Positions 10,288 through 32,938 of a stretch of 32,938 nt of DNA are shown here, in pieces. The first letter of the stretch is position 1. Each line of letters begins with the position of its first letter. The position numbers and the translations under genes were made by a program. The DNA lies in the NCBI GenBank assembly GCA_947853665.1, contig CANTXF010000019.1:1-32938 (forward strand), written 5' to 3'. Below the pieces are notes generated by a model, which saw nothing but the letters and a program-made list of their open reading frames with translations, searched no databases and was not told the DNA's origin. Source of the stretch: an uncultured Deferribacterales bacterium (GTDB lineage: Bacteria > Chrysiogenota > Deferribacteres > Deferribacterales > Mucispirillaceae).

Positions 10288-11361
10288 TTAATCCACCAGC
10301 GGCAGAAGGTAGCCGTAGCCTTCCTCCTCCATTTTGTCTTTTGGCACGAAACGGAGGGAAGCGCTGTTTATGCAGTATCTGAGGCCGCCAAGCTCCGCAG
10401 GCCCGTCGCTGAAAACATGGCCCAGGTGCGAGTCTCCCGCCCGGCTCCTGATCTCCGTGCGCGTCATTCCGTGGGAGGTGTCTTTATTTTCCGAAACTAC
10501 TTCCGGGTCTATGGGCTTTGAAAAGCTGGGCCAGCCGCAGCCGGACTCGAATTTGTCGGAAGATGAAAAAAGCGGTTCCCCCGTGGTTATGTCTACGTAT
10601 ATGCCTTTTTCAAATTTATCCCAGTACCGGTTTTTAAAGGGCGGCTCCGTGGCGTTCTGCCTCGTTACCGCGTATTGCTCCGGGGTAAGCGTTTTTTTAA
10701 GCCGGGCTTCGTCCGGCAGGGGATATTTTGCCGGGTCGATCACGGACGGGTCTTTGGCCCTTTCCGCCTCCGCAAATTTATCCCTGCCTATATGGCAGTA
10801 ACCTCCCGGGTTTTTATCGAGATATTTCTGGTGGTACTCTTCCGCGGGATAATAGTTTTTAAGAGGGCCGGCTTCCACGGCTATGGGTTTTTCATATTTG
10901 CCGGACAGCTTTTCAAGGGACGCCCTTATCGTTTTTTCATCAAGGGGGTCGGTGTAGTATATGCCCGTTCTGTATTGGGTTCCCGTGTCGTTGCCCTGCC
11001 TGTTTATAGAAGTGGGGTCTATTATTTTGTAGTACATATCAAGAAGGAAGGGCAGCGATACCCGGGACGGGTCGTATATTACCTTTACCGTTTCCGCGAA
11101 TCCCGTTTTCCCGGAGCATACCTCCTCGTAGGTAGGGTTTTCCTTATTGCCGTTGGCGTATCCCACGCCGGTGGATTTTACGCCGTTTATCATGGAGAAG
11201 TATTTTTCCGCTCCCCAGAAACAGCCTCCCGCAAGGTATATTTCGCGGTATTTTTTCATTTCGCCCTTCTCACCGGACGCCCCGGCGCTTTTCCCGCCTG
11301 TCTGGAACGCGGCGAAGGCAATAAGAGCCGCCGCAAGCCCGGTTAATAATTTTATTTTCAT
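10288..11361 (-). CDS. msrAB: Periplasmic methionine sulfoxide reductase, MsrA-MsrB fusion
   Basis: A 357-residue two-domain repair enzyme. Residues 1-29 form a Sec-type signal region, so it acts in the periplasm. The MsrA domain (about 38-195) reduces the S form of methionine sulfoxide and has GGCFWGAE with catalytic Cys47. The MsrB domain (about 215-355) reduces the R form: catalytic Cys330 is in [11 protein letters not shown] and Cys275 in SGCGWPSF is the likely resolving Cys. The usual zinc CxxC pair of MsrB is absent ([11 protein letters not shown] in its place), matching the non-zinc subtype. It resembles the central part of Neisseria PilB but lacks its thioredoxin domain, so an external electron donor is needed. 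It stands alone, facing the NapH-like gene. Confidence 0.95.
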
Positions 11362-11466
11362 ATTTTACCGCCGGTATTTTAAATATAAAAGGCGTTTCTG
11401 CGCCTTATAGTTCAGACTGGCCCCGATGGTCAAAGTTCATTTTAATACTAAAAAACTCTAAATGTA

Positions 11467-11494
11467 TTGTTTTTTACGGGTAACCGTATATAAT
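11467..11494 (+). promoter_or_regulatory. Probable promoter of the cytochrome-flavoprotein operon
   Basis: TTGTTT (11467-11472) and TATAAT (11489-11494) are 16 bases apart, about 48 bases before the cytochrome start. The spacer holds ACGG-GTAA-CCGT, a small inverted repeat that could be an operator. Confidence 0.5.
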
Positions 11495-11541
11495 GATGTT
11501 ATGTGTGGTTATATATACATCTTTCGAAAAGGAGGACAGTC

Positions 11542-12129
11542 ATGAAAATTTTTAGCGTGTTTCTTGCGGCGGCCCTGTCCGCGGCTTGCGCCTGGGCTGC
11601 GGAAGCCGCCGGAGGCGACGATTTGGAGAGCGGCAGGCGTTTGGGCAATTTTTGTTCTTCCTGCCACGGGCCTCAAGGGTCCGGGCCGGGTCAGACAATA
11701 CCTTATATCGGAGGCCAGTCTGCGGAATATCTTGCCAACACGATGATTGAAATGCGCGATAAGCGCAGGGCGGCCACGCTTATGCAGAAAATTTCTCAAG
11801 GGTACAGCGACGGGGATATTGAAAAAATCGCCCTGTACTACTCGAAACAGCCCTGGCGCAGCAATAATAATAAAATCGACGCCAAACTTGCCAAACAGGG
11901 GAAGGCCCTTTCCGAATCCTGCGAAGGCTGTCACGGGGAGGCCGGGTTAAGCGACGGATATACGCCGAGAATAGGAGGCTTTCCCGCCGAGTATATATAC
12001 TACGCACTGCTGGAATATAAAAACGGTCTGCGCAATATGGAAGAAGGCGGGGCGTCTATGGGGCTTGTGTCCGATATGGACGAAAAAGAGTTTAAGGCCC
12101 TTGCCGAATATTATTCGAGCCTGAAATAA
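11542..12129 (+). CDS. fccA: Diheme cytochrome c, likely partner of the sulfide dehydrogenase flavoprotein
   Basis: A 195-residue secreted cytochrome. A Sec signal (about residues 1-20, ending AAEAA) is followed by two class I cytochrome c domains with CSSCH (Cys38, Cys41, His42) and CEGCH (Cys127, Cys130, His131). The two halves share the pattern CxxCHG...P.IGG...Y, typical of the cytochrome c4 / FccA type. In flavocytochrome c the diheme subunit accepts electrons from the FAD subunit. ATG 11542 has AAAGGAGGACAG just upstream; a longer frame from 11503 lacks this support. The flavoprotein gene begins 13 bases later. Cytochrome c4 with another role is the alternative, but the neighbour makes FccA more likely. 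Confidence 0.82.
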   Translation: MKIFSVFLAAALSAACAWAAEAAGGDDLESGRRLGNFCSSCHGPQGSGPGQTIPYIGGQSAEYLANTMIEMRDKRRAATLMQKISQGYSDGDIEKIALYYSKQPWRSNNNKIDAKLAKQGKALSESCEGCHGEAGLSDGYTPRIGGFPAEYIYYALLEYKNGLRNMEEGGASMGLVSDMDEKEFKALAEYYSSLK

Positions 12130-12142
12130 AGGAGGCGGCGTT

Positions 12143-13411
12143 ATGAAAAGAATAAGCAGAAGAACATTGTTAAAATCCGTTCCGGCCGCGGCCGCCGTTT
12201 GCTCCGGCCTGTTTCCGGCGGTTTCGCAGGCGGCTCCGGCAAAAAAGGTGGTTATCGCGGGAGCGGGATACGGAGGCTCCACCGCCGCGAAGTACCTTAA
12301 ACTGCTCGACCCGTCGATAGAAGTTACCCTTGTAGACAGGAAGGACGTGCACGTGTCCTGCGCCATGAGCAACGAAGTTTTGTTTGGGTATAAGGACTTT
12401 AAAGACATAAACATACCCCATAAAATCCTTGCGGACAGATACGGCGTAAAGTTCGTAAAGGCGGAGGTATCGGGCCTTGACCCCAAGAAAAAGCGGCTTA
12501 TTACTTCCGCCGGGGATATGCCTTACGATAAGCTCATAGTTTCTCCCGGCATAGACGTTGATTACGATGAAAAAGCCGGTTTCGACGCGGAGATGCAGAA
12601 GGTGTTTCCCCACGCCTGGATAGCCGGGGACCAGACCCTTATGCTCAAATCCATGATAGACGGCCTTAAAAAGGGGGCTTCCGTGCTTATACGCACGCCT
12701 AAAGCCCTTTACCGCTGCCCGCCGGGGCCATACGAGCGCTCCTCACTTATGGCTGAAAAGCTCAAAGCTCTGGGCGGCAAGCTTACGGTGCTGGACCCAA
12801 ACCCCAAGATAATGTCCAAAGAGCCGCTTTTTAAAAACGGCTTCGAGGGTATTTATAAAGACGTGGTAACATATATTCCGAACGCCAAGGTGCTTTCCTG
12901 GAATAAGGAGAAAAAAGCCGTCGTTACGGACAAAGGCACTTTTACCGCCGACCTTATAAACTTTATCCCCGACCAGAAGGCGGGCCGTATGGCTTTTGAG
13001 CTGGGGCTCGTCAAAGAGGGCGGCAAATGGGCTCCCGTAAGCCCCAAGACCTTTGAATCCACGATTTTCAAAGACGTTTACGTTATCGGCGACGCCATAG
13101 ATTCCGACCCGGTTACCGAAATGCCGAAATCCGGCGTAGTCGCCAACTGTATGGGAAAAACCGTTGCCGAGAATATCGCCAGAGAGTTCCGCGGCCTGGA
13201 GCCGCTGCCTCCTATAATAGGCAACTCCTGTTACAGCCTCGTTACCCATACGGAGGGGATATGGATAGCCTCCGTTTACGAGTACGACCCCAAGGTAAAC
13301 AAAATAGTTGTGCGCAACGGAGCAAACGGCATACCGGAAAAACGCACGGTCGAAAACGGCCGCAACGTAAAAAGCTGGGGCGCCAATATGCTGGCGGACA
13401 CTTTCTATTAA
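12143..13411 (+). CDS. fccB: Flavocytochrome c sulfide dehydrogenase, flavoprotein subunit
   Basis: A 422-residue FAD protein that in known relatives oxidises sulfide to elemental sulfur or polysulfide in the periplasm. It starts with a Tat signal (SRRTLLKS) and then a Rossmann motif (VVIAGAGYGGSTAA, from residue 37). Cys73 in VSCAMSNEV matches the position of the covalently FAD-bound Cys of Allochromatium FccB. The redox pair is present: Cys192 in YRCPPGPYER and Cys363 in NSCYSLV. The second FAD motif (VYVIGDA) lies near residue 315, and the C-terminus is the FCSD flavin-binding domain. It is cotranscribed with the diheme cytochrome and followed by a terminator. Sulfide:quinone reductase is less likely given Tat export and the cytochrome. 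Confidence 0.9.
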   Translation: MKRISRRTLLKSVPAAAAVCSGLFPAVSQAAPAKKVVIAGAGYGGSTAAKYLKLLDPSIEVTLVDRKDVHVSCAMSNEVLFGYKDFKDINIPHKILADRYGVKFVKAEVSGLDPKKKRLITSAGDMPYDKLIVSPGIDVDYDEKAGFDAEMQKVFPHAWIAGDQTLMLKSMIDGLKKGASVLIRTPKALYRCPPGPYERSSLMAEKLKALGGKLTVLDPNPKIMSKEPLFKNGFEGIYKDVVTYIPNAKVLSWNKEKKAVVTDKGTFTADLINFIPDQKAGRMAFELGLVKEGGKWAPVSPKTFESTIFKDVYVIGDAIDSDPVTEMPKSGVVANCMGKTVAENIAREFRGLEPLPPIIGNSCYSLVTHTEGIWIASVYEYDPKVNKIVVRNGANGIPEKRTVENGRNVKSWGANMLADTFY

Positions 13412-13552: not shown

Positions 13553-13885
13553 TTAGCTTTTTTCGATATATTCTTTATATTCCGTTCCCCATTTTTCCAT
13601 TGAAGCTATTATGGGGCGCATAGTCTCCCCAAGGGGGGAAAGGGCGTATTCCACCCTGGGAGGGACCTCGGCGTAAACGGTGCGGGTGACGATACCGTCC
13701 GCCTCCATTGACCTCAGGCTGTCCGTAAGCACTTTTTGGCTTATGCCTTCAAGGGATTTCAGCAGCTCGTTAAAACGCCAGGGACGGTCAAGCAGGTTGC
13801 GGAGTATAAGCAGGCTCCATTTGCTTCCTATAAGCTTGACCGTCGTAGCCACCGGGCAGTCGGGCAGTTCTTCTTTCTTTTTCAT
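13553..13885 (-). CDS. HxlR family transcriptional regulator
   Basis: A 110-residue winged-helix regulator. It has the HxlR pattern: an N-terminal Cys (CPVATTVKLIGSKWSLLILRNLL, Cys at residue 10), then RFNELLKSLEGISQKVLTDSLRSMEADGIV as the recognition helix and VPPRVEYALSPLG as the wing. Many HxlR proteins sense aldehydes, quinones or redox change, sometimes through the N-terminal Cys. I chose ATG 13885 with AGAGG eight bases upstream; the frame extends to 13930 but that would run into the operator-like palindrome. It is divergent from the peptide/radical SAM cluster and so is a candidate controller of that cluster as well as of itself. Confidence 0.88.
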   Translation of the reverse strand: MKKKEELPDCPVATTVKLIGSKWSLLILRNLLDRPWRFNELLKSLEGISQKVLTDSLRSMEADGIVTRTVYAEVPPRVEYALSPLGETMRPIIASMEKWGTEYKEYIEKS

Positions 13886-13933: not shown

Positions 13934-14212
13934 CGCTTTAAACTATATTATAACATCCGCCGTAACGCAACCGCGCCGCCTGGAGCCGGGATTTATTTTT
14001 TTCCGCAGCCGTCTTTTTGCGCGGATAAAGGTAAAGTTATGGGATAGCCGCTTTTTTTGCCGCCGCCAACCCCCGGAAACGCCCAAAGATTACAAAAATG
14101 TGCGTATCCCTATAAAAAGGTGCGTACTTGCCGCGTATAAAAAAAGCGGTAAAGTAGCCAACGCCGGGAGATGGAGCGCATATCCCGGATAATATGATAC
14201 GGAGGAATAACA

Positions 14213-14389
14213 ATGGCCCTTTCAGATCTTTTCGGATGGAGCAAAGCCAAGGCGGCGTCTTCTTCGTGCGGAGCAGGCGATAAACCGGAGGAAAAACCCG
14301 CAGCCTGCGGTTCGGCCTGCGGAGCAGGAGACAAGCCGGATGAAAAACCGGCTTCCTGCGGCTCCGCCTGCGGCGCGGGCGATAAATAA
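14213..14389 (+). CDS. ACGX-repeat peptide, likely substrate of the adjacent radical SAM enzyme
   Basis: A 58-residue peptide. It starts MALSDLFGWSKAKAA and then has three repeats of a Cys-Gly-rich unit: SSCGAGDKPEEKPA, ACGSACGAGDKPDEKPA and SCGSACGAGDK. There are five Cys (19, 32, 36, 49, 53), each in an (Ala/Ser)-Cys-Gly context. The start is firm: GGAGG lies seven bases upstream of the ATG. The next two genes encode a radical SAM/SPASM enzyme and a nitroreductase-fold protein, which is the layout described for the ACGX radical SAM/SPASM system in protein-family collections (recalled, not searched). It is therefore probably a precursor modified at or near its Cys residues. There is no signal peptide. 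Product structure and role are unknown. Confidence 0.85.
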   Translation: MALSDLFGWSKAKAASSSCGAGDKPEEKPAACGSACGAGDKPDEKPASCGSACGAGDK

Positions 14390-14408
14390 AACGCCGCTTG
14401 AGTATCGT

Positions 14409-14432
14409 CTCCCGGCTTACGCCCGCCGGGAG
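14409..14432 (+). terminator. Hairpin between the peptide gene and the radical SAM gene
   Basis: CTCCCGGC (14409-14416) pairs perfectly with GCCGGGAG (14425-14432). There is no T run. It sits 19 bases after the peptide stop and may act as a partial terminator or RNA stabiliser, giving more peptide than enzyme. Confidence 0.55.
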
Positions 14433-14484
14433 CGTCTGTGATCTTATATATACGTTAGCTATCCTTTGAACGGGGAATTTTACT

Positions 14485-15522
14485 GTGAAAGAATACTTTG
14501 CATTTCAATGGCATATTACGGACGAGTGCGATCAGCGATGCAGGCACTGCTATATTTTTGCCGGCAGCGGCGGCATGAAGCCGGGCTTTATGGCATGGGA
14601 GCAGATAACGGATACGTTTTACAACTGCCTTGATTTCTGTGAAACATACGGACGGCTGCCATATTTCTATATTACCGGCGGCGACCCGATTCTCCATCCC
14701 GATTTCTGGAGGCTGCTGGGCCTGCTTAAAAAGCATGGCGTTCCTTTCGGTATTCTCGGCAACCCTTTTCATCTGACGGGGGAGATATGTCTGCGTTTAA
14801 AAGAATACGGATGCCGTAAGTATCAGCTTTCTCTCGACGGGATGAGAAGTACCCACGATTGGTTCCGTAAGCCCGGTTCTTTCGATATTACCGTCGAAAA
14901 GATCGCCGATATTAAAAATGCGGGTATCCGTTCCGTTATTATGACCACCGTGTCTGAAGCGAACATTAACGAGGTGCCCGATATTATCGACACCGCCGTC
15001 GAATATGGGGCGGATGTATTCGCTTTTGCGCGCTACTGCCCGGGAAAAGGGGAGAAAGGAGCGGGGATATCGCCTTTTGAATACAGGAGGCTTCTCGATA
15101 CCTGCCATCGCAGGTTCCGTGAGTACGAGGCCGCGGGCTGTTCCACATATTTTAACAGGAAGGACCATTTGTGGACGCTTTACGAATATGAGGAAGGTAT
15201 TTTTAAAATTCCGGCGGACGCCTGCGAGGGCGTTATTTACGGCGGGTGTAACTGCGGTAATTGCCATATTACGATCTTACCGTCGGGTGATATTTACGCG
15301 TGCCGCCGCGTCCGCGACAGCAAAGTGGGCAATACGCTTAAAGACAGGATAGCGGACGTGTGGACAGGCCGGATGGATGAGTACAGGGATTACTCCAGGT
15401 TTAAAAAATGCTCCGGGTGCGAGCTGCTTGCGTGGTGCAGGGGATGCCCCGCCGCGGCGTGCGGCGGGGACGGCGATTTCTATGCGGCCGACCCCCAATG
15501 CTGGAAAGAGGTAAGGAAATGA
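14485..15522 (+). CDS. Radical SAM/SPASM peptide-modifying enzyme (ACGX-system type)
   Basis: A 345-residue enzyme. The N-terminus holds the radical SAM cluster motif C-x3-C-x2-C (Cys15, Cys19, Cys22 in ECDQRCRHCYIF), which binds the 4Fe-4S cluster that cleaves S-adenosylmethionine. GGDP near residue 69 is the SAM-binding turn. The C-terminal third is a SPASM domain with many Cys: CNCGNCHITILPSGDIYACRRV, CSGCELLAWCRGCPAAACGG and a final QCW, room for two auxiliary clusters. Such enzymes make thioether or carbon-carbon links in peptides. The start is GTG at 14485 with GGGGAA upstream. It overlaps the next gene by four bases (ATGA) and follows the Cys-repeat peptide, its likely substrate. No PqqD-like recognition protein is seen nearby. 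Confidence 0.9.
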   Translation: MKEYFAFQWHITDECDQRCRHCYIFAGSGGMKPGFMAWEQITDTFYNCLDFCETYGRLPYFYITGGDPILHPDFWRLLGLLKKHGVPFGILGNPFHLTGEICLRLKEYGCRKYQLSLDGMRSTHDWFRKPGSFDITVEKIADIKNAGIRSVIMTTVSEANINEVPDIIDTAVEYGADVFAFARYCPGKGEKGAGISPFEYRRLLDTCHRRFREYEAAGCSTYFNRKDHLWTLYEYEEGIFKIPADACEGVIYGGCNCGNCHITILPSGDIYACRRVRDSKVGNTLKDRIADVWTGRMDEYRDYSRFKKCSGCELLAWCRGCPAAACGGDGDFYAADPQCWKEVRK

Positions 15523-16097
15523 ATCTGTTTGAATTGATAAAACGCCGCCGTTCTGTCCGCAAATATGAAAACAGGCAGATTAAACGGGAAGATTTGGAGA
15601 AAATAACGGAAGCGGGGCTTTACGCCCCAAGCGCTGGCGGCGGGCAGAGAACCGTGATCGTGGCCGTCTGTAACAGGGAGCTTTGCGAAATAATAGGGAA
15701 ACTGAATATAGCCAAGTTTGACCGGAAAAATTTATCCGGCTTCCGCGTGTCTTCCGAGCAGCCCAGCATTATCGACGACCCGTCCATAAAAAGCGGTTTT
15801 TACGGCGCTCCGGCCGTCTGCGCCGTTTTCGGGCCGAAAAACTTTTTATACAGCGTGCCGGACGCTTTCTGCTGCGCGGAAAACATGGTTTTGGCCGCTG
15901 CGGAGCTGGGGCTTGCGTCCTGCATTGTGGCGCGGGGTGAGGAAACTTTTGAAAACGAGCGGGGAGCGGCTTTTTTAAAGGAGTGGGAAATTCCGGAAAA
16001 TTATACGGCCCGCTGTTTCGTTCTGCTCGGATATTGCAGAGGCGAGTATCCGGCCGTTAAGGCAAGAAAGGAAAACCGCCTTAAAATCATAGAATGA
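15519..16097 (+). CDS. Nitroreductase-family flavoprotein of the peptide cluster
   Basis: A 192-residue FMN-dependent nitroreductase-fold protein. The N-terminus LIKRRRSVRKYENRQI is the FMN-phosphate-binding signature of this family, followed by YAPSAGGGQRTVIVAV and, near the C-terminus, AAELGLASCIVARGEE and a conserved VLLGYCRGEYP segment. It starts at ATG 15519 inside the stop of the radical SAM gene (ATGA overlap, with GAGGTAAGGA upstream), so the two are translationally coupled and very likely work on the same peptide. Relatives in other peptide pathways dehydrogenate residues or azolines. Generic nitroreductase activity is the alternative. It contains eight Cys by my reading, more than usual for the family. 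Confidence 0.87.
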   Translation: MNLFELIKRRRSVRKYENRQIKREDLEKITEAGLYAPSAGGGQRTVIVAVCNRELCEIIGKLNIAKFDRKNLSGFRVSSEQPSIIDDPSIKSGFYGAPAVCAVFGPKNFLYSVPDAFCCAENMVLAAAELGLASCIVARGEETFENERGAAFLKEWEIPENYTARCFVLLGYCRGEYPAVKARKENRLKIIE

Positions 16098-16213: not shown

Positions 16214-16648
16214 ATGGAATATACTAAAGACAAAGGCGCCTTTTATATCCGCATAGATAAGGGCGAGTACGTTATGGATAAAATAGAGGAAGTGTGCCTG
16301 CGCGAAAATATACGCGCCGGGTATTTCCAAGGGATAGGCGCATGCGATTCTGCTTCTATCTTAACTTACATACCCGATAAAAACGGCTTTGCGGAGCATA
16401 CGGTTTCCGGCATGCTTGAAATGGCGTCTCTTACGGGCAACGTTTCCGCCGCAGGAGACGGGATTTTAATCCACGGCCACGCCGTTTTTTCATATCTGAC
16501 CCCCGGAGGAGCGCCCGCCGTGACGGGAGGCCATTTAAAGGACGCGCGCGTAAGCTATACCGGGGAAATAATACTTAATAAAGCGGATAAGAAAATCGAA
16601 AAAATTGCCGACGCAGAAACGGGAATAGATATATGGAAACTATCTTAG
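16214..16648 (+). CDS. PCC/DUF296 domain protein
   Basis: A 144-residue protein that is one whole PCC (plants and prokaryotes conserved, DUF296) domain. Diagnostic features are the RIDKGEYVMDKIEEVCLRENI start, the Gly-rich QGIGACDSASI strand, then ILIHGHAVFS and VTGGHL, whose His residues cluster in known trimeric structures. In plants the domain goes with AT-hooks; free bacterial versions have no settled function. A GGGAG ribosome site lies a few bases before the ATG. It lies 116 bases after the nitroreductase gene on the same strand, with a hairpin between, so membership of the peptide cluster is uncertain. Confidence 0.88.
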   Translation: MEYTKDKGAFYIRIDKGEYVMDKIEEVCLRENIRAGYFQGIGACDSASILTYIPDKNGFAEHTVSGMLEMASLTGNVSAAGDGILIHGHAVFSYLTPGGAPAVTGGHLKDARVSYTGEIILNKADKKIEKIADAETGIDIWKLS

Positions 16649-24234: not shown

Positions 24235-25038
24235 TTGAAAATAACGGTAATCACGGCGGCTCTGATTGCTTTGAAGCCATGCAGGCTTCCATATTATAAG
24301 TTTTCCACCGTTCGGGGAGCCATAGGGCGCGGTTTGAGGAAAGCCGCCTGTATTAAAAGAACGCATGCCTGCGAAGGGTGCTCGGTTATTTCCTATTGTC
24401 CTTATGCGGAGCTTTTTGACGCGGCTGCCGCGCAAAAAGAGTACCTCCCTTTTGTGTCTTACTGCCAGAATACGCAAACCGATTTTTCTGAAGGGGACGT
24501 TCTTCGCGTTAAATTCACCATTATGGGGGAGGCCGTTAAATACGCGCCCTATGTGCTTCTGGCTCTGGATGAAATGTGCTGCGCAGGTATAGGAGCGGGG
24601 AGGGCTGAATTTACTATGCCGACCGCTCCGGTTGTGGAAGCCGGGGCACTGTCTCTGGTTCGTGGGGAGCCGGGCCGTTATAAGCTCCATATGATAAGCC
24701 CGCTGCGCGCCAAGCAGGGCAGCAGGCTGGCTAAAGGCATATCTATTCTGAAAATACTGAACCTGGCCGCGAACCGGGTAAAAATGCTTTACGGCCTGGA
24801 TACGGAAGAATCGTCCGGAGAGGTAAGGGAGCTTTTCAGCAATGTGGAATGGCTGGATATAGAAAGATACTCTAACAGGCAGAAAAGCAAAATGAGCCTG
24901 GGCGGGTTTGTGGGAGTTATAGAATACGAGGATACGAGGGGATATGCGGCAGGGCTTTTAAATCTTGCGTCCGAACTGCATATCGGCAAGCAGACCACTT
25001 TCGGGTACGGAAAAATAATACAGGAGAAACTGGCATGA
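24235..25038 (+). CDS. cas6: Cas6 CRISPR RNA-processing endoribonuclease
   Basis: A 267-residue Cas6 protein of the COG5551 type, which cuts the CRISPR transcript inside each repeat. Evidence is the N-terminal ferredoxin-like part with a Cys group (Cys46, Cys49, Cys55 in HACEGCSVISYCPY), the GIGAGRAEF segment in the middle and the C-terminal Gly-rich loop LHIGKQTTFGYGKI (about 250-263), diagnostic of Cas6. The start is TTG 24235, seven bases after GAGG; no ATG gives a full-length protein. It is the first gene of the operon, its stop overlapping the cas10 ATG. Which His is catalytic is not clear; His45 is one candidate. Confidence 0.88.
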   Translation: MKITVITAALIALKPCRLPYYKFSTVRGAIGRGLRKAACIKRTHACEGCSVISYCPYAELFDAAAAQKEYLPFVSYCQNTQTDFSEGDVLRVKFTIMGEAVKYAPYVLLALDEMCCAGIGAGRAEFTMPTAPVVEAGALSLVRGEPGRYKLHMISPLRAKQGSRLAKGISILKILNLAANRVKMLYGLDTEESSGEVRELFSNVEWLDIERYSNRQKSKMSLGGFVGVIEYEDTRGYAAGLLNLASELHIGKQTTFGYGKIIQEKLA

Positions 25039-27395
25039 CAGATAATCCGGCATATACGGTAGCCGCGGCGGCCTTGCTGCACGACATCGGCAAATTGTTT
25101 CAGCGGGCGGGCGTGAAATCCGATTTATCGGATATTTACAGGCACGCGCACGCAGCTGTTACCGCGGAATTTTTTACCGGTTCATTTAATAATTTTGATT
25201 ACGGGCCGGTTTTTAAACGGTTCCCCGATTTGAACGGCGAAACGGCGGGAACGCTTGCGTCTATGCATCACAGCCCCGGCACTCCCATGCAGTGGATTAT
25301 AGCCGTTGCCGACCGTTTGGCGGCCGGCTTTGAACGGGCCGAGTCTGAAAAGTATAATGATTATATCAAATCTCAGATGGACAAAGCGAATTTTAAAACT
25401 GTACTTCAGCGTAATATTTTTTATGACGTGTATTACGATAAAAACAGAGGGGACAGCTTTTATCCGCTGAAACCGTTAGATCCCGATTTGCTTCCCGATG
25501 AAAATCCCTTGCTGGGAAAATCCGACGGGGAAGCTTATAGAGATCTGGCTGACGGGCTGCTTGAGGATATAAATAGGCTATCCTGCAAGGCGGGGCAATA
25601 TTCGCTGCCTAACGTATTCGGAGCGTTGTGCGGGATAATGGAGAGATATTGCTGGTGCGTGCCTTCTGCGACGGTTGAAAAGGAAAACGGGCGGTTTGTG
25701 CCTAGGCCGTGCTCTATATCGCTTTATGACCACGGGCTTTCAGCCGGCGCTCTTGCCTGCGCCTTATACAGATATCACAGCGTAAACGATTCTTTGAATG
25801 TTGAAAGCATACGCAGCGACAAAGAAAAGAAATTCTGCGTTATTCAGGGAGATTTCAGCGGTATTCAGGATTTTATTTTCGATAGCGGCGGGCAGTCAAA
25901 CAGGTTTGCCGCAAAGATATTGAGAGCCAAGTCGTTTTTTGTGTCCGCTGCCACTCAGGCCGCCGCTTACGAGCTTTGCGATATGCTGGATATTCCCTAC
26001 GCCGCGATTATCCTGAACGCCGGTGGAAAATTTACTTTAATTACGGGCAATACCGGCATGGAGCAAAGCGCCGTCAATAAATTACGGGCAAGGATAAATG
26101 CCGGGTTCAGGAAGCTTACTTTCGGGCAGACGAAGTTTAACATCGTATGCAGGGTATGCGGCCCGTCCGATTTTACCGGCGTTAATTTCAGCAATTTGAT
26201 GAGGCGGGTCGGTAATCTTATGGAAAGGGAAAAACTGACCCATGACATAAAAGAACACGTATTCGGGGATTATCTGGAATCTGCTGGCGGAAAAGAAATC
26301 TGCGCGATATGCGGCCAACATTGGTCGGAAGTGGAATATGAAGAAGCCCGGTTATGCTCGTATTGCGACGATTTCCGTAAAATAGGCTCGGAGCTGGTAA
26401 AGTCAAAATTTTTATCTTTCGGCAGGGAAAAGGGCGGTTTCAAGCTATTTGACGACAAATATTTTTATTTTAAGGAAAACCCGGGCGGCCTTACGTTTGA
26501 TATTTCTTCAGACAGCGGCTTTAACGGCTACGCCAAAAAACGAGTGTCAGGTTATATTCCTAAAAAAGACGGCTTGCCTCTGACTTTCGATAAAATCGCG
26601 GAAAAAACCGAAGGAACAAATAATCTTGCTGTTCTGAAGGCCGATGTGGACGGGTTGGGGAGCATATTCGGCGGCGGGATCCAGAATAACAGCATATCCA
26701 AGACCGCCACCCTTTCGCGCATGATGGATTATTTCTTTACCGGATGGCTGCAGAAGCGGATAGAGGGACAAAATATATACACGGTCTTTTCCGGCGGGGA
26801 CGATCTGTTTCTTATCGGCGCGTGGAACGAAATAACCGGGCTGGCAGGCGATATCGCCGGGCGGCTGAAACTATATTCCGGCGGAAACCCGGAAGTTCAT
26901 ATCAGCGCCGGGGTCATATTGCGCAAAAGCCAGGTTCCCGTGCGGGAAATGGCCCGTGCGGCTGAAGAAGCGCTGAAATACGCCAAAGACGGAGAGAGCG
27001 ATAGGGATAATCGCAACCGTATAAATATTTTCGGAATTACCGTTAAATGGGAGGATTATTTCCCGCTGATGGAATACGCGGATAAATTGCTGGAGCTGTA
27101 CGCTGGCGGAGAGGCAGCTGTTTCCAGCGGCTTTATCTATCGTTTGCTCGGCTTTGCGGAAAACGCGGAACTGCTTAAAAAATATACCGCGGGCGGGGCT
27201 GTCTCCGCAGACGAGTTTATGGAGGCCGCAAAATGGCAGGCCAGGTTCAGATACCTTGTGAGCCGTAATTACAAAGATAATAAGGAACAGGCCGAGCGCT
27301 TGGGGGAATTGATAGCGCGGTATGGATTGGCCGCTAAAATTCCTTTGTCGATAGTTATTTATGAAAACAGAAAACAGGGAGGAAATAATGAGTAA
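25035..27395 (+). CDS. cas10: Cas10 (Csm1), type III-A large subunit with HD nuclease and cyclase
   Basis: A 786-residue Cas10. An N-terminal HD nuclease domain shows ALLHDIGK (His16, Asp17) and later SMHHSPGTP, which in relatives cuts single-stranded DNA. A treble-clef zinc site (CAICGQHW...CSYCDDF) sits mid-protein. The second Palm domain has FSGGDDLF with GGDD at 587-590, the catalytic motif that makes cyclic oligoadenylates from ATP when target RNA is bound. ILRAKSFFVSAATQAAAYEL is a conserved Csm1 segment. Both activities look intact. Its ATG overlaps the cas6 stop and its end overlaps csm2, so translation is coupled throughout. The two sensor-like proteins at the end of the operon are the expected users of its cyclic product. 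Confidence 0.96.
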   Translation: MTDNPAYTVAAAALLHDIGKLFQRAGVKSDLSDIYRHAHAAVTAEFFTGSFNNFDYGPVFKRFPDLNGETAGTLASMHHSPGTPMQWIIAVADRLAAGFERAESEKYNDYIKSQMDKANFKTVLQRNIFYDVYYDKNRGDSFYPLKPLDPDLLPDENPLLGKSDGEAYRDLADGLLEDINRLSCKAGQYSLPNVFGALCGIMERYCWCVPSATVEKENGRFVPRPCSISLYDHGLSAGALACALYRYHSVNDSLNVESIRSDKEKKFCVIQGDFSGIQDFIFDSGGQSNRFAAKILRAKSFFVSAATQAAAYELCDMLDIPYAAIILNAGGKFTLITGNTGMEQSAVNKLRARINAGFRKLTFGQTKFNIVCRVCGPSDFTGVNFSNLMRRVGNLMEREKLTHDIKEHVFGDYLESAGGKEICAICGQHWSEVEYEEARLCSYCDDFRKIGSELVKSKFLSFGREKGGFKLFDDKYFYFKENPGGLTFDISSDSGFNGYAKKRVSGYIPKKDGLPLTFDKIAEKTEGTNNLAVLKADVDGLGSIFGGGIQNNSISKTATLSRMMDYFFTGWLQKRIEGQNIYTVFSGGDDLFLIGAWNEITGLAGDIAGRLKLYSGGNPEVHISAGVILRKSQVPVREMARAAEEALKYAKDGESDRDNRNRINIFGITVKWEDYFPLMEYADKLLELYAGGEAAVSSGFIYRLLGFAENAELLKKYTAGGAVSADEFMEAAKWQARFRYLVSRNYKDNKEQAERLGELIARYGLAAKIPLSIVIYENRKQGGNNE

Positions 27396-27840
27396 CGCAG
27401 GTATAATCGACGGCTTGTCGTTTGAGCTGGGCAAAGGACCCGACGATAAGCTTTTCAGTGAAACTGCCGAAGGTATAGTTAATGAGCTGAAGGGTGATAG
27501 GTTCGGAGGAAAAAACAATGACAAGGATAAGATATCAACTACCCAGATTCGCCGTTTTTATAACGACCTGCTATCGATAAAAAGCGTTGTGGAGCTGGAA
27601 ACCCCTTCCAAGAGGGCGGCCGCTTTCAGGCTGCAAATTCCTTATGTTAATATGATGGTCGCTAAAGCGAGATACGCTAAAGGGCGGAAAGTTGTAGGCG
27701 AGAAATTTGTTAAATATATCGAAAAATGCGTCGAGCCGTTCGACTCGAATAGGCCGGCGGAAAGCTACGAGCATTTTAAGGTGTTCTGCAGCCTTTTTGA
27801 ATCAGTAGTGGCGTATGCCAGCGACATTATAGGCGATTAA
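27388..27840 (+). CDS. csm2: Csm2 small subunit of the type III-A complex
   Basis: A 150-residue small helical protein. The pattern ISTTQIRRFYNDLLSIKS, followed by RLQIPYVNMMVAKARYA and a C-terminal helix ending AYASDIIGD, is that of Csm2, which lines the inner face of the complex along the guide-target duplex. ATG 27388 lies behind GGGAGG and overlaps the cas10 stop by eight bases. An earlier in-frame ATG at 27361 lies inside cas10 and is less likely. Position between cas10 and csm3 agrees. Confidence 0.9.
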   Translation: MSNAGIIDGLSFELGKGPDDKLFSETAEGIVNELKGDRFGGKNNDKDKISTTQIRRFYNDLLSIKSVVELETPSKRAAAFRLQIPYVNMMVAKARYAKGRKVVGEKFVKYIEKCVEPFDSNRPAESYEHFKVFCSLFESVVAYASDIIGD

Positions 27841-27852
27841 CAGGAGAGAGAT

Positions 27853-28536
27853 ATGAAAATGAAACTGATAGAAATAAAAGAATATACGGGCGTTATAATC
27901 CTTGAAAGCGGCCTTCATATAGGCGCTGGCAGCGACGAGATAAAAATAGGCGGCATAGACAGCCCCGTGGTAAAAAACCCCGTTACCGGCAGGCCATATA
28001 TCCCCGGTTCTTCTCTTAAAGGGAAAATACGCACGCTGCTTGAGTGGAACGAAGGGAATGTTGACGAGAAAGGACTCCCTTTTTCCACAGATAAATCGGA
28101 GAACCTTATCGCCAGGATTTTCGGCAACGGAAAGATTAAAGAGGATTATAATGGCGGCCCTACGAGAGTAAGCTTTAACGACTGCGAGCTGTTGGAAGAA
28201 AGCGCCAGGGAATTGGCGGAAGCGGGCGGCTTTACGGAGGAAAAAACGGAAATATCAATGAACCGCAGGACGGGAACCGCCCGCAATGGAGGGCTCAGAA
28301 ATATAGAGCGGGTTCCTGCCGGGGCAAGGTTTGATTTTTGCGTTACATTTAAAATTTTTGATATGGACGACGGCGGCAAGGTTGACCGCGCCGCTTACGA
28401 GCTGCTTAAACGTGGGTTTAAACTGCTTGAATTGGATTCTCTGGGCGGCAGCGGCTCAAGAGGGTACGGCAGGATAAGATTCGACAATACTTCCGATAAA
28501 TCCGTATGGCCGGAGTCGGGTAATGCGCCGGCTTAA
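27853..28536 (+). CDS. csm3: Csm3 backbone subunit and target RNA nuclease
   Basis: A 227-residue RAMP protein (Cas7 type), the repeated backbone unit of the type III-A complex that cuts target RNA every six bases. It begins with GVIILESGLHIGAGSDEIKIGGIDSPVVKNPVTGRPYIPGSSLKGK: the GSSLKGKIR Gly-rich motif is diagnostic, and Asp36 in GGIDSPV matches the catalytic Asp33 of studied Csm3. LDSLGGSGSRGYGRI near the C-terminus is the second Gly-rich loop. CAGGAGAGAG precedes the ATG. The end overlaps csm4 by 14 bases. RNase activity is expected from the Asp. Confidence 0.96.
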   Translation: MKMKLIEIKEYTGVIILESGLHIGAGSDEIKIGGIDSPVVKNPVTGRPYIPGSSLKGKIRTLLEWNEGNVDEKGLPFSTDKSENLIARIFGNGKIKEDYNGGPTRVSFNDCELLEESARELAEAGGFTEEKTEISMNRRTGTARNGGLRNIERVPAGARFDFCVTFKIFDMDDGGKVDRAAYELLKRGFKLLELDSLGGSGSRGYGRIRFDNTSDKSVWPESGNAPA

Positions 28537-29491
28537 AATAACCGTCAGGCCGGAATCCGCTTTTATAAGCAGGTTGCAGTCCGATACGCTTTTCGGCCAG
28601 TTTTGCTGGACCGTAAAAGAAACGCGGGGCGATAACGCTCTTAAGGCGCTTTTATCCGGTTACGGGCATAATCCTTTTATTATATTTTCCGACGGTTTCC
28701 CAGCCGGATATCTGCCCGTACCGTTTTTGCCGCCTTCGGTTGACGGCCCGGCGGATGCGGATATCGTTAAAAAACGGTTTAAGCATAGAAATTTTGTTAA
28801 AAGCGGCGATTTGTTAAAAATTCTGCCGGAGCTTTCATGGCGGGCGCTTATTAATATATTGAAATCTGACGCCGCCGCCGGAAGAAGCGAGGGTATGTGT
28901 GACGAGCCAGTTGTAAAAAGCGCCGATGTTTATAAAAACTCTATTAATCGCATCACTTCCTCCACCGCCACCGTTAAAGGCTCCGGCAGTCTTTACCATA
29001 CGGAGGAAACGTATTACGAAACCGATATTGATATATATGCCGTATATAACGAGGCTATTATAGACGGCGGCGGTATAACGGAAATATTTAAGCTGATAGG
29101 CAAAACCGGCTTCGGCAGGGATAAATCCACCGGCAAGGGCCGCTTTTCCGTGACGGATACGGTTGAGGAGCCTTGCGAGCTTCTTTCGGGGCGTGATGAA
29201 GGTGATATATTTATATCTCTAAGTAACGGCGTGCAGGCTGATGGGGCGGTTCTTAAATACGGCAAAGTGTTTACCAAATTCGGCAAGCACGGCGGCACGC
29301 TCGCTTCTCAGGGAAAGCATATAAAAAATCCGGTGATAATGCTGAAGCCCGGGAGCGTGTTTTCTTTCACGCGGAGAAATGATTTTTACGGAGCCGGTCT
29401 GGAGCTTGCCCCTAATGCTCCGGGGCATTTTCACAGCGCGTGGATGATACCTCTTTTCGGCAGACTGGCGGAGGATGCGGAAAATGAATAA
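28523..29491 (+). CDS. csm4: Csm4 subunit that holds the crRNA 5' handle
   Basis: A 322-residue RAMP protein (Cas5 type). The start RRLKITVRPESAFISRLQSDTLFGQFCW contains the SDTLFGQ motif typical of Csm4. Further on are TGFGRDKSTGKGRFSV, a Gly-rich RAMP loop, and a C-terminal HGGTLASQGKHIKNPVIMLKPGSVF segment seen in Csm4 proteins. In known complexes it binds the 8-base repeat-derived 5' handle of the crRNA and contacts Cas10. The ATG at 28523 is inside the end of csm3. Gene order and motifs agree. Confidence 0.94.
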   Translation: MRRLKITVRPESAFISRLQSDTLFGQFCWTVKETRGDNALKALLSGYGHNPFIIFSDGFPAGYLPVPFLPPSVDGPADADIVKKRFKHRNFVKSGDLLKILPELSWRALINILKSDAAAGRSEGMCDEPVVKSADVYKNSINRITSSTATVKGSGSLYHTEETYYETDIDIYAVYNEAIIDGGGITEIFKLIGKTGFGRDKSTGKGRFSVTDTVEEPCELLSGRDEGDIFISLSNGVQADGAVLKYGKVFTKFGKHGGTLASQGKHIKNPVIMLKPGSVFSFTRRNDFYGAGLELAPNAPGHFHSAWMIPLFGRLAEDAENE

Positions 29492-30797
29492 ATCTGAACC
29501 TGTCCGTATGGTGATAACGACTAAATCTCCGGTGCATATAGGTTCCGGCGCCGAATATTATCCTACGGATTATGCGCCATTTATAAAAAACGGCGAAAGG
29601 CCGGATTCGCTATATTTTTATGACCGTACTGCTTTGTCTGAAGCCATAGCCGGAGACGAATCGAAGTTTAAGGAATACTGCGATCTCGTTAAAATCAGAA
29701 ATTTCGGCGATAGAGGCAGCATGGAAAGGTTTTATGAATTTATTCGGCCTTATGTCGTTAAGCTGCCGTCTTCATCCTTTTGCCGACTCAGCCCGGAGGC
29801 CGCCTTTAAATTAGGCGAGAATCGCTCCGGAACGCCTATCGCCGCCCTTATAAAAAACAGGTATTTAAAGGAGCCTTATATTCCCGGCTCCGCCGTTAAG
29901 GGAATGCTCAAAAATATAATATATTGGAAGTATTATAGCGATAAGAAGCGGAAACGGCTTGACGATAATGATTTTCCTTTCGGGGACTGCGACCCGTGGC
30001 GGCTTGTGAAAGTGTCCGATTTTCAGCCGGTTAAGGCTTCTGCCGTTATAGATAAGCTTGTTAATCTCCATAAGCCCAAAAAAGGCTCCGGAAGCAGAAC
30101 AGTCAGTGGTATTCCGAACCTGTCGGAGCTGATTGACGCAGGCTCCGTATTTATAGGCACTGTTACCTTTAACCGGGAGCTTTATGAAACAGCTTTAAAA
30201 GGCGATGATCCTTTTTCGCAAAATGTTAAAAAGTTTTTTGAAAATAATCCGTTAAGCGCTGAAAACATTCGCGAGGCCGTAAAGGCCTACGGCGACCATC
30301 TGTTTAAAAAAGAATACTCCGTTTTTAATTTCGGAGGGTTTTTTGACTGCTCAAAAAGCGTTGGCGATAGCAACGCTCTTAAAAAAGGATTTGAAAAATG
30401 GTGGGCTTCATCGAGCGGCGAGGCCGGTAAAAAAACGGCGCGCTTTATTAAATTGGGCAAGCACGCCGGAGCCATATCGAAAACGGTTTACGGCGGGGAC
30501 GATTTTTTTATAGGGGAAAGAAACGTAATTATCCCTCAGCAGAAGGATAAAAAAATTAGAAACGACACCCAGACGACTGTATGGCTTTCTTCTTCCGGCG
30601 AGCCTTTAGGCTGGGCTGCCGTTGAGATAGGAATAAGCGACGAGGAGTGGAATCGATATTTGGCCCGGCGTGAAAACTTTATAAAAGAGCCTGATAAGCC
30701 GCCGGTCGTGCCCGCCGCCGTAGAGCAAAGCCCTGTTAAAAACGAGAAGGAAGCCGTAATGGATAAATATAAGCATAATATTAAACGGCGGCGATAG
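29484..30797 (+). CDS. csm5: Csm5 subunit of the type III-A complex
   Basis: A 437-residue RAMP protein (Cas7 type) that caps the 3' end of the crRNA. The N-terminus PVRMVITTKSPVHIGSGAEY and YIPGSAVKGMLKN near residue 135 are the Csm5 motifs; FIKLGKHAGAISKTVYG in the C-terminal part matches the family too. The tail after residue 400 is charged and probably loose. ATG 29484 has GGAGG nine bases upstream and overlaps the csm4 stop by eight bases; an ATG at 29475 is possible but has no room for a ribosome site. The next gene begins one base after the stop. Confidence 0.93.
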   Translation: MNKSEPVRMVITTKSPVHIGSGAEYYPTDYAPFIKNGERPDSLYFYDRTALSEAIAGDESKFKEYCDLVKIRNFGDRGSMERFYEFIRPYVVKLPSSSFCRLSPEAAFKLGENRSGTPIAALIKNRYLKEPYIPGSAVKGMLKNIIYWKYYSDKKRKRLDDNDFPFGDCDPWRLVKVSDFQPVKASAVIDKLVNLHKPKKGSGSRTVSGIPNLSELIDAGSVFIGTVTFNRELYETALKGDDPFSQNVKKFFENNPLSAENIREAVKAYGDHLFKKEYSVFNFGGFFDCSKSVGDSNALKKGFEKWWASSSGEAGKKTARFIKLGKHAGAISKTVYGGDDFFIGERNVIIPQQKDKKIRNDTQTTVWLSSSGEPLGWAAVEIGISDEEWNRYLARRENFIKEPDKPPVVPAAVEQSPVKNEKEAVMDKYKHNIKRRR

Positions 30798-30798
30798 C

Positions 30799-31293
30799 AT
30801 GAGCGGCGAAATGTTGTGGGAATGTTTGGACCGTGTAAGTATCATTTTTGGGATAATAACCTTTCTCCCTGTTCTATGGGCGGCAGTGCTGTATATCCGC
30901 CGTAACAGCAGGCTTCGCAAAAGTATTCTGGCCGCCGTTGCCAGGGCGGAAACCCACCAGCCCATATATATTGAGCTTACCGGCAAAAACAATCTTACTG
31001 TCGAGGCGGAAAAGTATTTAAACAAACAGAATTTTCCCGGAGAAATTTTAAAAGGTATCGAGCTGATCCGCTCCGGCGTGAAGATGAACGATACCGCCGA
31101 TGTGGAGAAGCTGAAAAATAAAATTATAGACATAAAGCTTGAAGCCCTTGGCCGCGCTCCGGAGTGCATACATCTGTTTTATTCCGGCCCGGTGGCGATA
31201 GGCGTCATGATAGGGGATATATTTTCCAACTGTAAGAATGTGTATATTTATCATAAGGACGAAAGCGGATACGCTTTTACTGCAAAAATATAG
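30799..31293 (+). CDS. Single-TM protein with SAVED-like C-terminal part, candidate membrane effector
   Basis: A 164-residue protein inside the cas operon, between csm5 and the CARF-HEPN gene. Residues 14-33 (SIIFGIITFLPVLWAAVLYI) form one membrane helix; RRNSRLRK follows, so the rest should face the cytoplasm. The soluble part has PIYIELTGKNNLTVEAEKYL and then ECIHLFYSGPVAIGVMIGDIFS...VYIYHKDESGY, which reads like the C-terminal half of a SAVED domain, the cyclic-nucleotide sensor known from CBASS and some type III systems. At about 120 residues it is shorter than a full SAVED domain, so it may need to oligomerise. No nuclease or protease motif is visible, so membrane disruption is the inferred mode. 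CARF-TM proteins are the nearest known idea. Confidence 0.6.
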   Translation: MSGEMLWECLDRVSIIFGIITFLPVLWAAVLYIRRNSRLRKSILAAVARAETHQPIYIELTGKNNLTVEAEKYLNKQNFPGEILKGIELIRSGVKMNDTADVEKLKNKIIDIKLEALGRAPECIHLFYSGPVAIGVMIGDIFSNCKNVYIYHKDESGYAFTAKI

Positions 31294-31304
31294 GAGGGGC
31301 TGGA

Positions 31305-32552
31305 ATGGCCAGAATACTGATAACCATGCTGGGAACGGGGCATAAAAAGGACGGCAAATACAAAATGGCCGACTACGAGATAGACGGCGCTGTTTATCGC
31401 GGCGAGACGTTTATCGCCCATGCCCTTGCCGCGCATTATAAGGCTGATAAAATTTTCATATTGGGCACGTCCGGCTCTATATGGGACAGCGTCTATACCG
31501 TTTTCGGCGGCAGGGATGACGATACTAATCTTTACCTTTATGATAAAAAAGAGAAAGACGACGTTAAAAAGGATGATTTAAAAAGCGTAAACGCGGTTCT
31601 GGACGATTTTACGGGGGTTAAGGGCAGCGCCTGTTTTCTGGTGGACTACGGGCTTAACGACGCGGAGCTTTGGAACAATTTCAGCCAGTATCTGCAGATT
31701 TCGGAGCATATAAACCATGGCGACGAGATTTATCTGGATATTACTCATTCCTTCCGTTCCCTTGCCATGATGTCGTTTCAGATGGTGCAGTTTATCGAGC
31801 AGGTCCGGCGCAGGGACGTTAAACTGCGCGGAATCTATTACGGTATGCTTGAATACAGCGGTAAAAACGGCGGCGTAGCCCCTGTTGTAAATATCAGTAT
31901 ACTGGCTGAAATACAGGAATGGACAAAAGCCATAGGCTATCTTAAATATTCCGGCAGCGCGTCTATGCTCTATGAGCTTATAATGGGCCGCAACGGGGAT
32001 ATAGATAAGAAAACCGCCGGCACTTTCCTGCATATGGCCAATTGTATTTCGGTCGGCAATATAGTATGTATTCAGGAAACCGTTAAAATCATAAAAAACC
32101 GGCTGGACAGTTTAAAAGAAAGCAATAATCCCATAGTTGCCTATATATCCGGCGATATAGAGGATTTTGTAAACCGTTTGGATTATGATAATGAGCCTGA
32201 TTTCAGTATGGCGCTGGCGCGCTGGTTTGGGGAATGTCATAATTACGGAATGAGCTATATCGTATTGGCGGACGCTGTAATATCAAAGGTATGCCATGTA
32301 AAGGGTATTGACCCGGATTCCATAGACGGGCAGGATGAGGCTAAAAAAATAATAAAAGCCTTTAAGAAAAATGAGGGCTTAAAACAGTTTGCGGAAACAT
32401 ATTATACGGTCAACGAGATTCGCAACAGCATCGCTCACAGCACCGGCAGAAAATCCTTAATAAGCGACATAAAAAATTTAAATATATATATTGATAGTAT
32501 AGAACGCGGCTTTAAAGAGCTTGACAGGCAAAAATCCCGCGGCCTTTTATAG
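31305..32552 (+). CDS. CARF-HEPN RNase, Csx1/Csx2 type
   Basis: A 415-residue ancillary nuclease of type III systems. The N-terminal CARF domain (about 1-200) has a Rossmann-like ILITMLGTG start, ILGTSGSIWD near residue 50 and the family signature DITHSFRS (Asp145-Ser152), which lines the cyclic oligoadenylate pocket in Csx1/TM1812-type proteins. The C-terminal HEPN domain has R-x4-H (Arg373, His378 in EIRNSIAHS), the RNase active site. Binding of the Cas10 signal would turn on nonspecific RNA cutting. AGGAGGGG precedes the ATG. It is the last gene of the operon, right before the array leader, and fills the role usually played by Csm6. Confidence 0.92.
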   Translation: MARILITMLGTGHKKDGKYKMADYEIDGAVYRGETFIAHALAAHYKADKIFILGTSGSIWDSVYTVFGGRDDDTNLYLYDKKEKDDVKKDDLKSVNAVLDDFTGVKGSACFLVDYGLNDAELWNNFSQYLQISEHINHGDEIYLDITHSFRSLAMMSFQMVQFIEQVRRRDVKLRGIYYGMLEYSGKNGGVAPVVNISILAEIQEWTKAIGYLKYSGSASMLYELIMGRNGDIDKKTAGTFLHMANCISVGNIVCIQETVKIIKNRLDSLKESNNPIVAYISGDIEDFVNRLDYDNEPDFSMALARWFGECHNYGMSYIVLADAVISKVCHVKGIDPDSIDGQDEAKKIIKAFKKNEGLKQFAETYYTVNEIRNSIAHSTGRKSLISDIKNLNIYIDSIERGFKELDRQKSRGLL

Positions 32553-32742: not shown

Positions 32743-32938
32743 ATGTTAAGACCTGTCGTAATGGACGGGGATTGAGACTAATATTCATCCATTGCCTCTT
32801 CTCTTGAAATTTGTGAGTGATGTTAAGACCTGTCGTAATGGACGGGGATTGAGACCTATGCCTATTTTCTCACGCTTTACGGTATAGCTATGCCTAACAT
32901 GTTAAGACCTGTCGTAATGGACGGGGATTGAGACCTCT
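32743..32938 (+). CRISPR. CRISPR array, leader end, cut by the window edge
   Basis: Three identical 36-base repeats stand at 32743-32778, 32820-32855 and 32899-32934. Each begins ATGTTAAGACCTGTC and ends GGGGATTGAGAC. The spacers are 41 bases (32779-32819) and 43 bases (32856-32898); a third is cut after four bases. The 3' end ATTGAGAC would be the 8-base crRNA 5' handle, typical of type III repeats processed by Cas6. The repeats contain no strong hairpin. Transcription runs left to right from the leader, so the spacers seen are the newest. No cas1 or cas2 is visible; they may lie beyond the array or be supplied from elsewhere. Confidence 0.97.

Follow-up and report, generated by a model that had tools for sequence, protein, structure and literature searches.

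An ACGX-repeat peptide cassette with a divergent HxlR-type regulator in an uncultured Deferribacterales bacterium, a candidate stress-induced intracellular RiPP system

The window, that is, the whole stretch of 32,938 nucleotides that was analysed, carries an ACGX-repeat precursor gene (acgA), a radical SAM/SPASM maturase gene (acgM) and a nitroreductase-family gene in a row on one strand, next to a divergent HxlR-type gene (Table 1). The three genes lie where the first-pass annotation had placed them, with acgA and acgM adjacent and 95 nt apart and the nitroreductase ATG overlapping the acgM stop codon (ATGA). The family-model search that this annotation had suggested bore out its pairing of a precursor with a dedicated ACGX-type SPASM maturase, both models matching well above cut-off; the TIGR04340 match spans residues 3–343 of the 345 in AcgM, and the CxxxCxxC motif occupies residues 15–22. 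Because the TIGR04341, TIGR04340 and PF00881 scores all exceed their cut-offs, the three-gene arrangement was not considered a product of chance. AcgA is an acidic peptide built of repeats; it has no evident signal sequence, a leader reading MALSDLFGW and five Cys, each in a Cys-Gly pair; the Cys-Gly repeats originally counted as three units are real, but they comprise one half unit (SCGAGDK) and two full units (CGSACGAGDK).

The names acgA and acgM are already used in the NCBI annotation of a Roseburia plasmid and, since both family models also exist, the ACGX kind is already a named one; by its family matches, the cassette is a further example of this named but uncharacterised kind, outside Clostridia. 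No papers on ACGX peptides were found within the limited literature searched, the kind being known from family-model catalogues. Rfam gave no match, and PHROGs gave generic matches only. The left flank adjoining the cassette (10288–13411) is a redox-rich setting that encodes a bifunctional MsrA/MsrB on the minus strand, a di-haem cytochrome c and a sulfide-dehydrogenase-like flavoprotein. Further along, a Type III-A CRISPR system occupies 24235–32552 (Csm1 at 25035–27395, Csm4, Csm5), and a CRISPR repeat array (ATGTTAAGACCTGTCGTAATGGACGGGGATTGAGAC..) at 32743–32936 reaches the window end.

Table 1. Features of the ACGX cassette in the window
Feature	Position	Strand	Description	Support
HxlR/DUF24-family regulator	13553..13885	-	divergent from acgA	PF01638 105.9 bits, above cut-off
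Putative conserved operator	~14088..14130	+	ATTACAAAAATGTGCGTATCCC then ATAAAAAGGTGCGTACTTG; two GTGCGTA copies 20 bp apart	
Probable promoter	14128..14155	+	-35 TTGCCG (14128-14133), 16 bp, -10 TAAAGT (14150-14155)	read from sequence
acgA ribosome site	14201-14205		GGAGG	
acgA, ACGX-repeat precursor peptide	14213..14389	+	58 aa	TIGR04341 66.7 bits vs cut-off 28
GC-rich hairpin	14408..14431	+	CTCCCGGC..GCCGGGAG between acgA and acgM, no T-run after	
acgM, radical SAM/SPASM maturase	14485..15522	+	345 aa, GTG start	TIGR04340 584 bits vs cut-off 400
Nitroreductase-family flavoprotein gene	15519..16097	+	192 aa	PF00881 83.3 bits vs cut-off 23.5

Scanning genome contigs yielded 369 relatives, and the 80 best of these were retained (69–77% identity; nearly all Clostridia, many from gut samples); all locus counts below refer to these best 80 of 369, derive from simple ORF and tblastn calls, and describe best-matching loci rather than independent events. 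An acgA homologue was present at 71 of the 80 loci, four of the 71 copies being frameshifted or truncated, and the nine loci lacking it comprise five with <500 nt upstream and four (L013, L032, L074, L048) that show remnants or an assembly gap. The enzyme kept with the peptide lost, the pattern by which the first-pass annotation had proposed to judge the pairing, is thus not what these close relatives present: 71 of the 75 loci with at least 500 nt upstream carry the peptide. With the frameshifted or truncated copies left out, the AcgA peptides of the best 80 contain 2 to 11 Cys-Gly sites each; Gly follows every one of the 426 Cys examined, and Ala precedes 412 of them, while the leader resembles MALSNLFGW. 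The gene order, often with stop-start coupling, recurs over many clostridial genera.

In searches of genome sets, acgM scored above cut-off in none of 99 related genomes of the window's group, the window alone scoring among the 100 searched, and in 10 of 196 genomes of one clostridial order. Genes flanking the cassette on either side have homologues (~60–64% identity) within the window's own family, which places the contig in that lineage; no empty site is demonstrable, because the homologues of two flanking genes lie ~62–65 kb apart in family relatives. In a tree of AcgM proteins only, the window sequence sat on a long branch and a placement was not obtained; with outgroups, it fell within the clostridial AcgM (support of 100/100 for the group and 94/85 for its nearest partner). 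We read the cassette as an old horizontal acquisition, of inferred direction and date. Recent transfer as judged by composition was not supported, the GC and GC3 of the cassette matching those of its neighbours.

Related genes were also seen on viral contigs and a plasmid. A 504-kb, phage-like viral contig from IMG/VR (L158, 4941–6026) carries an orphan AcgM homologue of 51% identity, with both the ACG peptide and the operator absent within ~5 kb of it, and is the single, distant departure from the pairing of enzyme and peptide; a contig from a viral collection (L157, 4740–7325) encodes a peptide with a different leader, acgM and a nitroreductase, followed by an HxlR-type gene on the same strand. 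An ACGX-type operon also lies on a plasmid of the rumen methanogen Methanosphaera sp. ISO3-F5, an archaeon (L160, 4140–7024), and consists of a divergent ACG[TSG]E-repeat peptide, a divergent helix-turn-helix gene, an acgM annotated in two pieces and a zinc-binding, quinone-oxidoreductase-like dehydrogenase.

The divergent HxlR gene, the operator and the acgA–acgM hairpin had been overlooked in the first-pass annotation. The regulator combines an HxlR domain with a single N-terminal Cys, in PDCPVATTV, and so belongs to the one-Cys HxlR/DUF24 type; it is RrpB-like, though below the RrpB model cut-off. Among the best 80 relatives, a divergent HxlR gene stands beside acgM in 67 of the 72 loci with sufficient flanks, and 60 of 70 HxlR proteins have exactly one Cys. 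Between the HxlR gene and acgA the window's operator stretch reads ATTACAAAAATGTGCGTATCCCTATAAAAAGGTGCGTACTTG, and the conserved block in relatives approximates GGTTACAAAAAGGTGACTNNGTAATAAAAAAGTGCGTACTT with a TAYAAT-like box ~20 bp beyond, at the same distance as the window's -10. Its invariant core GTGCGTACTT (14120–14129, the only exact copy in the window) is exact in 61 of 72 acgA upstream regions of the best 80 and within one mismatch in 70 of 72, 81–125 bp upstream of the start codon, whereas shuffled sequences would be expected to yield 0.005 occurrences for the whole set. The core and the second GTGCGTA copy overlap the -35 box. Elsewhere in the genome, a near-copy (TAAATGTGCGTACTTG; L151, 1134–2219) lies between a second HxlR-type gene and a divergent gene for a flavodoxin-like reductase, and its position beside another HxlR-type gene supports the prediction that the operator is an HxlR-type site. 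A strong hairpin between acgA and acgM was found at 58 of 67 loci among the best 80, versus 2 of 67 shuffled controls, and is a plausible means of making more AcgA than AcgM. In Bacillus, an N-terminal Cys allows the DUF24 regulators HypR, YodB and CatR to sense HOCl, quinones and diamide, and the genes under their control encode nitroreductases or azoreductases (PMC6943732).

As for the chemistry of AcgM, its second-ranked NCBIfam model is SbtM (TIGR04082, 153.5 bits; next model 114), which also has the best E-value after ACGX itself for 31 AcgM members; against an SbtM cut-off of 350 bits, AcgM is not a member of that family by score, and because the score is so far below, its reaction could differ. 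AcgM and SbtM nonetheless group at 99/93 against the other nearest SPASM enzymes, in a tree of limited sampling and long branches. SbtM takes four hydrogens from Cys or Sec to form a thio(seleno)oxazole (PMC11002830). By sequence relationship, a thiooxazole is the leading guess for the AcgM product, at slightly under an even chance. It is rather unlikely that AcgM instead forms thioether bridges, as in ranthipeptides or sactipeptides: SkfB, CteB and SuiB are among its solved relatives by sequence and fold, and Cys-dense repeat peptides often serve as ranthipeptide substrates, but the closest characterised family is SbtM, Gly follows every AcgA Cys and conserved acceptor positions are few in the repeats. 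An AlphaFold model of AcgM (pLDDT 75) matched SkfB, SuiB, CteB and anSME in Foldseek; as a prediction it confirms the SPASM fold and cannot decide the reaction. Two other loci were noted. Upstream of one SbtM, an SbtA-like peptide (L162, reverse strand, 1009–1410) has TGA (Sec) codons in frame, and two of these fall within SG-U-GG. At L090 (1465–2913), a further SPASM radical SAM gene precedes a PqqD-like ORF of 101 aa and a 46-aa peptide whose C terminus reads RQCSGCHGCR, an arrangement that looks like a separate RiPP cassette.

The nitroreductase had been proposed as a possible second modifier, together with a count of its co-occurrence. Among the best 80, it does adjoin acgM in 46 of the 69 loci with sufficient flanks, but it is a replaceable partner: a PIG3-like quinone oxidoreductase occurs at 16 of 67 loci, lies downstream in 15 of 69 and never stands alongside the nitroreductase, and 8 of 69 loci have neither. 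Because an unrelated oxidoreductase thus takes the same place, the nitroreductase was rejected as the default tailoring enzyme of the peptide, and co-regulation of a reductase does not show that it acts on AcgA. A PCC/DUF296 gene at 16214 was dropped as a cassette member, being next to acgM in 0 of 63 relatives among the best 80.

Other partners recur in the best 80, namely a protein with a PNPOx domain and two 4Fe-4S motifs (39 of 67 loci), a Sir2 protein (34 of 63) and a macrodomain (22 of 60), and in more than half of the clostridial loci the operon runs on into a class M sirtuin (SirTM), often plus a Zn-macrodomain (Zn-Macro) protein. Of the solved structures, Streptococcus pyogenes SirTM (5a3a, 268 bits) is the best match to the Sir2 protein; 40 of 40 Sir2 proteins carry the class M QG motif, and the macrodomain protein scored above the cut-off for 'protein-ADP-ribose hydrolase' (NF003163). 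In the window's genome there was no match to SirTM or to the PF01661 macrodomain, the same SirTM query having found its target in 19 of 20 clostridial genomes; by these searches, the window holds a compact cassette without SirTM. The earlier description of a complete pathway was right as to precursor and maturase, and too strong otherwise, given the overlooked regulator and the extra genes of most clostridial versions (PNPOx-ferredoxin, Zn-Macro, SirTM).

These partners might also form a loose stress island, in which an HxlR promoter drives unrelated stress genes and nothing ties AcgA and AcgM functionally to the nitroreductase, PNPOx-ferredoxin or SirTM. Exchangeable or missing partner genes would fit this, as would the wide occurrence of SirTM without acgM (38 of 196 genomes of the clostridial order with SirTM, 10 with acgM, five with both; one-sided Fisher p 0.025). 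The order is tight, however, often stop-start coupled across many clostridial genera and partly kept in an archaeon, and SirTM lies within 4 kb of acgM in four of the five genomes with both, that is, in four of the 10 acgM genomes sampled, so that we regard a loose island as distinctly unlikely.

Among the ~80 loci (best 80 of 369), no conserved exporter or protease was found, nor any conserved leader peptidase or immunity gene. The lack of a conserved exporter or protease makes it likely that the product is intracellular, in agreement with the first-pass annotation. Short peptides paired with SPASM enzymes often prove to be exported bioactives; with these absences, and with AcgA acidic and devoid of a visible signal sequence, an exported antimicrobial or signalling RiPP is very improbable here. 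The main rival, to which we assign a low probability, is a metal-buffering peptide that would chelate Cu(I) or some other soft metal at its modified Cys-Gly sites, in the manner of the MNIO-made bufferins and bulbicupramide. AcgA is Cys-dense and appears intracellular, and the Cys-Gly thiooxazoles of a Microbulbifer repeat peptide, which arise at Lys-Cys-Gly sites, bind Cu(I), with no protease encoded nearby (PMC12538549). Against metal buffering, the conserved regulator is an HxlR protein and not one that senses copper or zinc, and the recurrent neighbours in the best 80 include reductases and SirTM but no metal transporter or chaperone.

An intracellular thiol/electrophile sink or redox carrier is favoured because of DUF24-type sensing, the recurrence of reductases, SirTM and Zn-Macro, and the lack of a recurrent exporter or protease. 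We consider it an even call that the cassette is an electrophile- or disulfide-stress-induced intracellular RiPP, probably with thiooxazoles at Cys-Gly, that acts as a thiol/redox sink, its chemistry and function both being deduced. The one-Cys HxlR protein would repress acgA until a change to its Cys, caused by quinones, aldehydes or disulfide stress, frees the promoter. AcgA would be made in excess over AcgM via the hairpin, and AcgM would recognise the MALSxLFGW leader and oxidise Cys at every (A)CG site, probably yielding a thiooxazole with loss of four hydrogens per site, as SbtM does. Modified AcgA would stay in the cytosol as a multi-site soft nucleophile or redox sink, the co-induced nitroreductase (elsewhere the quinone oxidoreductase) may reduce the inducing electrophile or recycle AcgA, and in many Clostridia reversible ADP-ribosylation by SirTM and Zn-Macro may gate the system, a layer that the window organism appears to lack. 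Counted for the stress-induced sink were the conservation of HxlR and operator, the exchangeable NAD(P)H-type reductases, the retention of acgA with acgM, the strict Cys-Gly pairing, the grouping of AcgM with SbtM, the Sec before Gly in the SbtA-like peptide, the near-copy of the operator beside a second HxlR-type gene, and the archaeal plasmid, which keeps a divergent helix-turn-helix gene, peptide, acgM and quinone-oxidoreductase-like gene; counted against it were that HxlR regulators sense aldehydes and other signals too and that about half of the best 80 loci have no SirTM nearby.

The control switch and neighbours in ~80 gut bacteria (best 80 of 369) suggest intracellular thiol-stress defence, and thus a testable job for the ACGX peptide. 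Its function can be tested directly because the predictions are now specific, namely -4 Da per Cys-Gly site, a named regulator with a putative binding site, and a partner set. More speculatively, and with little probability, the SbtM-like modified Cys-Gly peptide may be a redox carrier that replaces lipoyl-GcvH-L, with clostridial SirTM/Zn-Macro reversibly ADP-ribosylating the peptide or its reductase (off/on) and HxlR sensing stress; if true, this would make a RiPP a regulated intracellular thiol cofactor. The ACGX peptide system is likewise a candidate answer to the question, raised by the authors of the Zn-Macro work, of the SirTM/Zn-Macro target where GcvH-L is lacking.

Several known systems resemble the cassette in part. 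The Roseburia sp. 831b plasmid system shares its peptide, maturase, nitroreductase, divergent helix-turn-helix regulator and operator, but continues with a 4Fe-4S protein, a protein-ADP-ribose hydrolase and a Sir2 protein, whereas the window version ends after the nitroreductase. The Bacillus subtilis HypR, YodB and CatR regulons likewise join a DUF24/HxlR Cys sensor to nitroreductase-type genes; we know of no RiPP in them. The SbtA/SbtM system has a related SPASM enzyme and a peptide with Cys or Sec followed by Gly, although SbtM, unlike AcgM, is extended by ~200 residues at its N terminus, and Sec codons are used in the SbtA-like peptide. Bufferins and bulbicupramide are, like AcgA, Cys-Gly repeat peptides with predicted or known thiooxazoles and are thought to be intracellular, but depend on the MNIO enzyme class (multinuclear non-haem iron) and are copper-linked (PMC12538549). 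Elsewhere, the SirTM/Zn-Macro ADP-ribosylation pair acts on the lipoylated carrier GcvH-L and is tied to oxidative stress (PMC4518038, PMC11490716); no GcvH-L or LplA cluster was seen at ACGX loci among the best 80. The extended SirTM/Zn-Macro/GcvH-L/LplA2 operon and the clostridial ACGX operons both set SirTM and Zn-Macro beside an oxidoreductase and a candidate sulfur-bearing carrier, which in the ACGX operons is the Cys-Gly peptide, whereas in the window organism the peptide stands without the SirTM/Zn-Macro layer.
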